This document shows, piece after piece, positions 26,678 to 27,842 of a DNA stretch of 64,000 bases. Numbering within the stretch: position 1 is the stretch's first letter; every line of letters starts with the position of its first letter. The position numbers and the translations under genes are program-made. The notes under the pieces are model-generated. The model did not search any database. It was not told the origin of the DNA and worked only from the letters and a program-made list of their open reading frames with translations. The stretch comes from Nipponacmea schrenckii (Eukaryota; Mollusca; Gastropoda; Lottiidae), in contig CM060200.1 of assembly GCA_030562195.1 (NCBI GenBank), forward strand, positions 16,616,001 through 16,680,000, in the 5' to 3' direction.

Positions 26678-27842
26678 TTAAAAATCAGTTTTTTGAAGTT
26701 CGTTTTGATAAAATCTACCCAAGATTTCTTCACCATGTAAATCTACTAAACTGTAAGTTGGTGGTGAAGTTTCATTAACTTTATCAATAATAAAGATTTC
26801 ATTCGTCCAATATCCAACATAACCTTTTTCAAATTTACTTTTATATTTATAAATACGAACTCGATCCCCAACTTTAAATTTGCGTTTAATATTCAAATTC
26901 TCATTTTCAAAATTGTTTTGTGTATTAATTGATTTTATAATATCTGGATTTTTTGAAGCTTCTGTAGGAGTAACATTTATAGATGAATGAATTTTATTAT
27001 TATATTCATCGACAACAATAGGTAATATTTTAAGCCATTTTTGAGACTTCAATTCTGTGAACTTTTTGAATAATTTATTTTTTTAGAGTTCTGTTAAATC
27101 TCTCAATTACTACAGCTTTACCTTCGTTATATGTACTGTAAATTTCAAACCCTAGAGATTTCATATTTTTATTATAAAATTCTGTTCCTTGATCTACCCA
27201 TAACTTTTTGGGTTTTCTATGATTCATTATTGTTTCAAATGCTTTTTTAACAGTTAGTCCTGTTTTGTTTTTTAGAGGAATAACCCAAGCGTATCTTGTA
27301 TATAAATCAATAACTGTTAAACAATATTTATACCATCTTTCTGGGGGCATATTAATTAAATCAGCTGACCATATATCATCTTTGGCGAATACTTTAACTT
27401 TTAAAAAGTTTTTAGTTTTTCTAAATTCTTTATGAATTTCATCTGCTATTCCCATACCCAATTTCATTTTTGATTTTAATAATTTAATGATTAATGCTCT
27501 TTCAACTTTTTCTCTAAAAGTAGGATTTGGAATAGATTCTAATTCTTTAATCATTTGTTTTTCTGCTTCGTGTCGAAATTGTAAGTCTTCATTTCTGTAT
27601 AGTTTGTCGTGTTTAAGTGCAGCAGCATCTACTCTATTAACTGGTTCTTCACCTGGTTTTGGATTATCATTTTCATCCAATCGTAAATCTAACCTTGTTC
27701 CCGGACCAGTGTAATTATGACCTGGAAGATGTTTCTCACCTTTATATTTAGCCCATGGGAAACCGGGAAGTTTAGTTAGAGATTTCTGAATGTCCCCTGA
27801 TCCAAAATAGATTTTAGGGGAATGAATGTTTATAAAAGACAT
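26678..27842 (-). pseudogene. Phospholipase A2-integrase fusion gene (one frameshift)
   Basis: Residues 1-130: a parvovirus-type PLA2 domain with Ca-binding loop YTGPG (44-48) and the catalytic His-Asp pair in KHDKLY (78-79). Residues 132-255: integrase catalytic core with D161 (SADLIN), D217 (WVDQGTEF) and E247 (VIERFNRTLK), so all three acidic residues are present. A one-base expansion in an A-run at about 27080 ends the frame just after E247. The rest (27052-26678) carries the C-terminal GDRVRIYKYK / GYVGYW chromo-like segment. The second copy at 29372-30280 reads through this A-run without the shift, so PLA2 and integrase were encoded as one protein. The start lies inside the terminal repeat. 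Confidence 0.85.

Follow-up and report, generated by a model that had tools for sequence, protein, structure and literature searches.

Some Polintons encode lipases that are closest to the phospholipase A2 (PLA2) of parvoviruses, and packing of these enzymes in a virion for entry has been proposed (PMC4642659). In the Spodoptera Mavericks Sf Maverick 1 and Sf Maverick 2, the cited passages place the PLA2 in the N-terminal part of a separate CAP open reading frame (ORF) (PMC5803895). PLA2 is also named in the legend of a Polinton genome figure (PMC3671162), a domain table enters the PLA2 family for corals (PMC6214176), and parvovirus-like repeats of planarians are described with the PLA2 family PF08398 beside NS1 (PMC3198968). 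According to a 2021 abstract, an extracellular form of Polintons had yet to be detected (PMC7805220). Here we describe, in a 64,000-nucleotide stretch of the genome of the limpet Nipponacmea schrenckii (contig CM060200.1, positions 16,616,001 to 16,680,000; hereafter the window), a Polinton/Maverick gene in which a parvovirus-type PLA2 and an integrase form one protein. An earlier note on this DNA had called the arrangement its strongest candidate for an undescribed one. We found no description of a PLA2-integrase fusion in the literature searched, where journal coverage was partial and the 2021 adintovirus paper lay outside it; PLA2 genes of Polintons, however, were already in print in the passages cited above (PMC4642659, PMC5803895, PMC3671162).

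The fusion ORF (protein P0001) lies on the minus strand at 27075-27842 and reads as a single ATG-to-stop frame of 255 amino acids, ended early by a frameshift. Amino acids 37-102 (27537-27734, minus strand) match PF08398 with 34.4 bits (E 2.7e-8, Pfam cut-off 23.9) and contain the YTGPG Ca loop (Y44 to G48), the H78-D79-xx-Y82 motif and E94. Amino acids 155-229 (27156-27380, minus strand) match the rve integrase core PF00665 with 42.2 bits (E 1e-10, Pfam cut-off 32.6) and contain D161 and D217; E247 lies beyond the match. Members of the family almost invariably have D at position 94, and it is a D in 80/80 other copies examined in the same genome (24/24 intact, 56/56 others). The C-terminal part of the integrase follows at 26678-27052, also on the minus strand and in a different frame, and corresponds to the end of the intact 387-amino-acid copies. 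The window copy is thus broken near amino acid 255. The predicted intact product is a protein of about 387 amino acids in which a parvovirus-type PLA2 at the N terminus is followed by a linker, by the DDE core of the integrase and by a small beta part at the C end.

A second, broken copy lies at 29642-30280 on the minus strand, outside the element that holds the first (16874-27953). Its PLA2 (33.1 bits) and the start of its integrase core (rve, 33.7 bits) share one frame up to a frameshift, and the integrase remainder occupies another frame at 29331-29651 (minus strand). The PLA2 dyad of this copy reads HE where HD is expected. The observation made in the earlier note was confirmed: both domains are joined in one gene above the Pfam cut-offs, the Ca loop, the His-Asp pair and the three integrase acids occupy a single frame, and a second copy shows the same fusion. 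It had presented 26678-27842 as the gene; these coordinates were right, with the amendments that the gene runs on the minus strand and that 26678-27052 belongs to another frame.

How does this gene compare with the described systems? The limpet PLA2 shares with the unique region of parvovirus VP1 the PF08398 family, the Ca loop and the HDxxY motif; unlike in VP1, where it sits on a capsid protein, it sits on an integrase. We take the limpet element to be double-stranded DNA, unlike a parvovirus. In addition, PF00385 chromodomains gave no match in the 387-amino-acid limpet protein at E 0.05; two fused relatives (P0109 and P0118) do have a chromodomain-like end, as judged by eye. Sf Maverick 1 and 2, as far as the cited passages describe them, resemble the limpet case in that a parvovirus-type PLA2 with conserved catalytic residues occurs in one element with an rve integrase, a protease, an ATPase and PolB; they differ in that their PLA2 belongs to the CAP ORF and their integrase carries a chromodomain (PMC5803895). 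The adintovirus or MELD virus group, in the part of its definition cited here, likewise has an integrase with a C-terminal chromodomain that is without match in the limpet form (PMC11071296), and the fold search with a modelled homologue ranked an integrase of a MELD virus highest (see below). Like the limpet element, the planarian repeats are interspersed in the genome of an animal and contain PF08398; there, parvovirus NS1 is a separate ORF, and an integrase is not mentioned in the cited passages (PMC3198968). The type of element is known, and what is new is the joining of an entry-type enzyme and an integrase into one widespread, selected protein.

The window protein had at least 152 matches in its own 399-Mb genome. 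We fetched 80 places with full or near-full cover (40 ranked high in the list and 40 more that mostly ranked lower), leaving out nine repeat places on contig C3. On this contig (C3 of G000), each of nine listed copies has a counterpart at an offset of exactly +29,626,336 bases, which looks like a sequence placed twice, that is, an assembly duplication. When the 80 copies were aligned to one intact copy, 24 were intact (at least 380 codons, no frameshift or stop), 21 among the first 40 and 3 among the second 40. The 56 non-intact copies showed a frameshift in 28 cases and a stop in 35, and some are merely incomplete or run into N. The commonest intact length was 387 amino acids, and an intact copy scored 38.6 bits with PF08398. 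Eight checked PLA2 positions, among them the Ca loop, the His-Asp dyad and the second Asp, were invariant in 24/24 intact copies; D161 was present in 23/24.

We then compared variants found in at least two of the 80 copies, which are mostly older than the insertions, with private variants, which are mostly younger. Shared variants in the PLA2 (codons 15-130) comprised 19 nonsynonymous (N) and 52 silent (S) changes, a per-site ratio of 0.118. The integrase core (codons 131-260; N25/S47) and the C end (codons 261-387; N24/S45) both gave a ratio of 0.158, and codons 1-14 were less constrained (9/10, ratio 0.291). Private variants gave N/S counts of 102/34 in the PLA2 (0.97), 129/28 in the core (1.37) and 114/21 in the end (1.61), and all these counts are subject to the kinship shared by the copies, to a fetch order set by protein score and to the use of column majorities as reference states. 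Because shared variants are biased towards silent changes and private variants are near neutral, both halves were similarly constrained during the spread and drifted freely afterwards. Thus, the PLA2 and the integrase halves were both under selection while the family multiplied. A dead PLA2 carried as a passenger of the integrase is rejected by the shared-variant test across the 80 copies.

A homologue search returned 809 proteins, of which 120 were listed; the following counts rest on those 120. Among the listed relatives outside Lottia, the PLA2 was in frame with the integrase in 92/92: 85 had at least 70 amino acids of PLA2 and at least 60 of integrase, 6 were cut inside the PLA2 (at the N end) and 1 was cut in the integrase. 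Proteins with both domains, which the earlier note had suggested looking for elsewhere, are therefore numerous among the listed relatives. The PLA2-integrase fusion is real: chance or artefact is rejected on the profile scores, by these 92/92 relatives and by the 24 intact copies in the same genome. The listed Lottia gigantea proteins were 64-86% identical to the query over part of its length. Of the 28 Lottia models listed (P0052, P0059, P0085 and 25 others), several run from the PLA2 into other ORFs, some of them coiled-coil-like.

The catalytic residues were counted in 122 fusions from two homologue listings, with the window proteins and the Lottia models set aside and with P0005 numbering. 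On the PLA2 side, G38 was found in 112/112, P39 in 109/114, H70 in 115/116, D71 in 116/116, Y74 in 118/119 and D87 in 119/119. On the integrase side, the counts were D154 122/122, D212 120/120 and E242 111/112. We modelled the homologue P0005 with AlphaFold2 from 58 sequences (mean pLDDT 86.4, pTM 0.63). The predicted PLA2 part has long helices at 62-76, 80-95 and 102-129, with residues of about 121-140 less certain; it is followed by an RNase H-type core, as judged by the order of strands and helices, and then by the small beta end. Foldseek against viral models ranked a MELD virus integrase first and the Mavirus integrase sixth. Melanoplus sanguinipes entomopoxvirus followed at rank 50 with a PLA2-like protein (101 columns, root-mean-square deviation 2.9, 29% identity, E 2.3e-4). 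This match to a predicted entomopoxvirus structure supports a PLA2 fold for P0005, so that the structure prediction advised by the earlier note did yield a PLA2-like part, in the model of this homologue. Sequence searches of the PDB with P0001 returned integrases and, weakly, VP1-type capsid proteins (E 0.047 and worse); with the A2 profile at E 0.01, integrases made up 19/19 matches.

We also asked what else is joined to this type of integrase. With the integrase part of P0118 as query, 7,320 proteins were found, of which 120 were listed; by profile, 31 of these contained PLA2 and integrase (query included) and 89 the integrase alone. Sixteen of the integrase-only proteins have at least 400 amino acids, and in 15 of them (P0155, P0156, P0136 and 12 others) an Ulp1/adenain-like protease precedes the same integrase, with H57, D72, Q111 and C118 invariant. 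The best Pfam match of the protease part was PF00770 with 20.2 bits, below the cut-off of 21.3. These protease-integrase fusions, of which we found no description in the literature looked at, resemble the PLA2-integrase fusions in that an enzyme of virion type occupies the N-terminal slot of the same integrase; they differ in that the protease replaces the PLA2 and in that an adenain-type site marks the joint in most of them. Among the 73 shorter integrase-only proteins, many begin just ahead of a shared LA-[DE]-ELH motif. When the PLA2 part of P0172 served as query, 114 further proteins were listed; the PLA2 was accompanied by an integrase core in 19 of them and by an integrase start or fragment in 8. 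Among 45 of the stand-alone coral-type PLA2 sequences, many have a basic tail after a conserved GLG. Oculina patagonica entries place PLA2 proteins of this type in a coral; most entries are without organism name. A genomic-context search of IMG/VR with A1, P0037, P0109, A3 and A4 gave 0 loci.

An integrase tree was built from 100 of 190 sequences, thinned at 80% identity. P0001 was too short for inclusion; its nearest relatives fall on a side of 46 sequences with support 99. On this side, 44 are labelled PLA2, and the other two (P0055 and P0090) begin within the PLA2 domain. The other 54 sequences comprise 15 with PLA2, 9 with protease and 30 unfused. The PLA2 label changes 11 times, at least 6 of them forced by well-supported branches, with the proviso that some unfused sequences may be cut frames. 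Judged from these sequences, the integrase appears to have a free N-terminal slot that was filled repeatedly by PLA2, protease or DUF5679, with PLA2 being usual in the limpet clade. DUF5679 (PF18930, zinc-ribbon-like by eye) stands ahead of the PLA2 in several fusions and stand-alone PLA2 proteins (P0165, P0153, P0246 and others), and, below cut-off, ahead of the integrase in a Trichoplax MELD virus (P0127).

The fusion gene resides in a Polinton/Maverick; elements of this kind integrate, are virus-like and have a gene for a double-jelly-roll capsid protein. In the window, the whole decayed element spans 11,080 bp (16874-27953). Its terminal inverted repeats (16874-17117, plus strand, and 27710-27953, minus strand) are 244 nt long, 97% complementary and start with AGTAGTA. 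They are flanked by identical GGTGCA target site duplications at 16868-16873 and 27954-27959, and repeats and flanks together thus bound the element. The right repeat spans codons 1-44 of the fusion gene, which is why an inverted copy of the first codons lies inside the left repeat. A 6-bp target duplication was found in 3/5 elements checked, the window's included: among four further pairs of repeat ends, ACTATC and AGGGCC match, one pair differs and one end was not found. The fusion gene is followed directly by an N-terminal piece of a cysteine protease gene (26491-26736, minus strand), whose start sequence is that of the ORF after the PLA2-integrase gene in a related element (L052) and is similar in another (L001). 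Next to it is an ORF of coiled-coil-like repeats, fibre-like by eye (25453-26295, minus strand). A 222-bp tandem repeat at 25604-26502 (about 4 copies) encodes the repeated coiled-coil-like unit beside the protease piece, possibly a fibre shaft. Further pieces are a probable N-terminal part of PolB (23328-24281, minus strand; by eye, with no Pfam match above cut-off), a packaging ATPase (21295-21762, plus strand; PF04665 22.9 bits, cut-off 22.8) and a capsid protein (20161-20706, plus strand; PF21738 26.0 bits, slightly below the cut-off of 27).

In L052, a complete double-jelly-roll capsid ORF (PF21738 30.7 bits, cut-off 27) and a packaging ATPase (PF04665 34.3 bits, cut-off 22.8) lie beside the fusion gene, and in L050 a PolB piece (PF03175 74.7 bits) adjoins it. 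The protease-like ORF of L052 is without Pfam match; that of L001 scores 13.4 bits with PF00770, under the cut-off of 21.3, and matches the protease part of 6/16 proteins tried (with E values for 16 sequences). L001 (CALZFZ010000048.1) is a Polinton-like contig filed in a bacterial (Muriicola) metagenome bin; it holds an intact PLA2-integrase, the protease-like ORF, a protein-X-like gene (PF05829) and a PolB-like ORF of 1156 amino acids. Elsewhere in the window, ORFs at 31434-32378 on the minus strand resemble a broken piggyBac-type transposase, by eye only.

Our data show directly that the two domains are fused, that such fusions are abundant, that a modelled homologue has two ordered parts and that both halves were selected during the spread of the element. 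The reading that best explains these results, which we regard as probable by a modest measure, is that the integrase would be carried in the particle, joined to the PLA2 that breaches the membrane for it. Several observations weigh against this reading. The pTM of the P0005 model leaves the mutual placement of the PLA2 and integrase parts unfixed. The second glycine of the Ca loop, G40, was found in only 88/114, a count that misalignment may have lowered. All 28/28 listed Lottia gigantea gene models have PLA2 without integrase, and a separate PLA2 without integrase accounts for 87/114 listed coral-type proteins; since separate PLA2 is common there, the life cycle does not depend on the joint. 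A GxG retained at the joint could be a cleavage site under rules other than those of adenain. Finally, we read 30 of 150 listed PF08398 matches in the limpet's own genome (L096/L097 and L119/L120 are C3 repeats) and searched the fetched flanks of nine loci with short PLA2 frames for exact matches to integrase motifs. L106 and L116 had them, and L100 stops at a contig end; exact motifs were absent from the fetched flank of L093, L095, L099, L113, L114 and L119. L095 and L099 (G000:C8, about 9.2 kb apart) have a whole PLA2 domain in a 144-amino-acid frame that stops right after LADEIHKE, and the PLA2-only frames of L093, L113 and L114 share the ending RYIMNKFVCYII, perhaps an inverted-repeat edge. 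These six loci could represent either truncated copies or genes for PLA2 alone.

Is the fusion protein cleaved at the joint? It might be a packaging precursor that only loads the integrase, with the element's own cysteine protease then separating the PLA2, as in retroviral Gag-Pol. In favour of such a precursor, the protease ORF has its first ATG 1 nt past the fusion stop in L052 and 12 nt past it in L001, and the sister fusions join an adenain-like protease with invariant H57, D72, Q111 and C118 to the integrase. The consensus of the adenovirus protease (adenain) is [MIL]xGG or [MIL]xGxG. At the protease-integrase joint it was found in 7/10 distinct sequences (1.0 expected by shuffling), or 11/15 of all (1.6 expected). 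At the PLA2-integrase joint, however, where the earlier note had proposed to look for a protease site, it occurred at chance level (6/63, 4.2 expected; 0/16, 0.9 expected). Processing is thus likely in the protease-integrase fusion, and cleavage of the PLA2-integrase joint at an adenain site is unsupported. A looser GxG is largely kept at that joint (G122 120/121, G124 103/121), and related motifs occur in small proteins of L052: the pattern G-x-G-[hydrophobic or D], which was picked after viewing the L052 proteins, has 8 occurrences in its 8 proteins against about 2.4 expected, all of them in the PLA2-integrase and three small proteins. But the same pattern also matches PolB and another ORF in L001, and GxG is present near the end of stand-alone PLA2 too, so that it may belong to the PLA2 fold. 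We consider the precursor unlikely, though worth keeping in mind. Of the two mechanisms that the earlier note had offered, a precursor cut in two agrees less well with the data than an integrase packaged together with a membrane-breaching domain of its own, because adenain sites are at chance at the PLA2-integrase joint and enriched at the protease-integrase joint.

The fusion might also be a by-product of gene order, in which neighbouring PLA2 and integrase genes fuse by loss of a stop and the joint is without function, or the PLA2 is a non-catalytic targeting or DNA-binding part. Fused and separate forms with closely similar PLA2 do coexist in coral-type elements (adjacency of the separate genes was not directly seen), and the repeated changes of the PLA2 label on supported branches of the tree agree with such events, cut frames permitting. 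Yet 46/46 sequences on the limpet side of the tree contain PLA2 sequence, the catalytic residues are nearly invariant and the shared variants of the PLA2 are strongly biased towards silent changes, which makes this account quite improbable. The earlier note had named separate frames in relatives as an outcome that would speak against its proposal: such frames are frequent in the coral type, and the limpet-clade sequences sampled are fused, the Lottia models excepted. Those models suggest another account, a splicing switch in which a PLA2 exon is spliced to other virion proteins (the fibre-like ORFs), the integrase fusion being what remains when this splicing does not occur. None of them has the integrase, and some of the ORFs into which they continue resemble 25453-26295. 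However, they join at varying points and are automatic, and gene-model pipelines may filter out models with a transposon-type integrase domain; we consider such a switch very improbable.

Under the preferred reading, an integrase packaged together with its PLA2, the fusion protein would be packed in the particle while attached to the genome. Its integrase part would tether the PLA2 to the DNA, a task for which a coral-type stand-alone PLA2 would use its basic tail. Upon uptake, the PLA2 would cut the endosome membrane, by analogy with parvovirus VP1, and the same molecules would bring the integrase to the nucleus, where the element would be inserted with a 6-bp duplication. Their fusion would ensure that every particle able to escape from the endosome also delivers an integrase. 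More broadly, and with somewhat less confidence than doubt, we suggest that a lineage of double-stranded DNA viruses brings in its integrase by fusion to virion enzymes, either a PLA2 or a maturation protease, and that the PLA2 joint stays uncut, so that a single protein would both open the endosome and insert the genome.

It is an old question whether Polintons are transposons or pass from cell to cell as viruses. A selected fusion of an entry-type enzyme and an integrase ties insertion to entry, and is not easily accounted for if the element hops inside one nucleus only. With the protease-integrase fusions as a second case, a rule suggests itself in which integrases of DNA viruses are packed by fusion to virion enzymes, comparable to retroviral Gag-Pol. 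In these elements, a single protein may thus link cell entry to genomic insertion.
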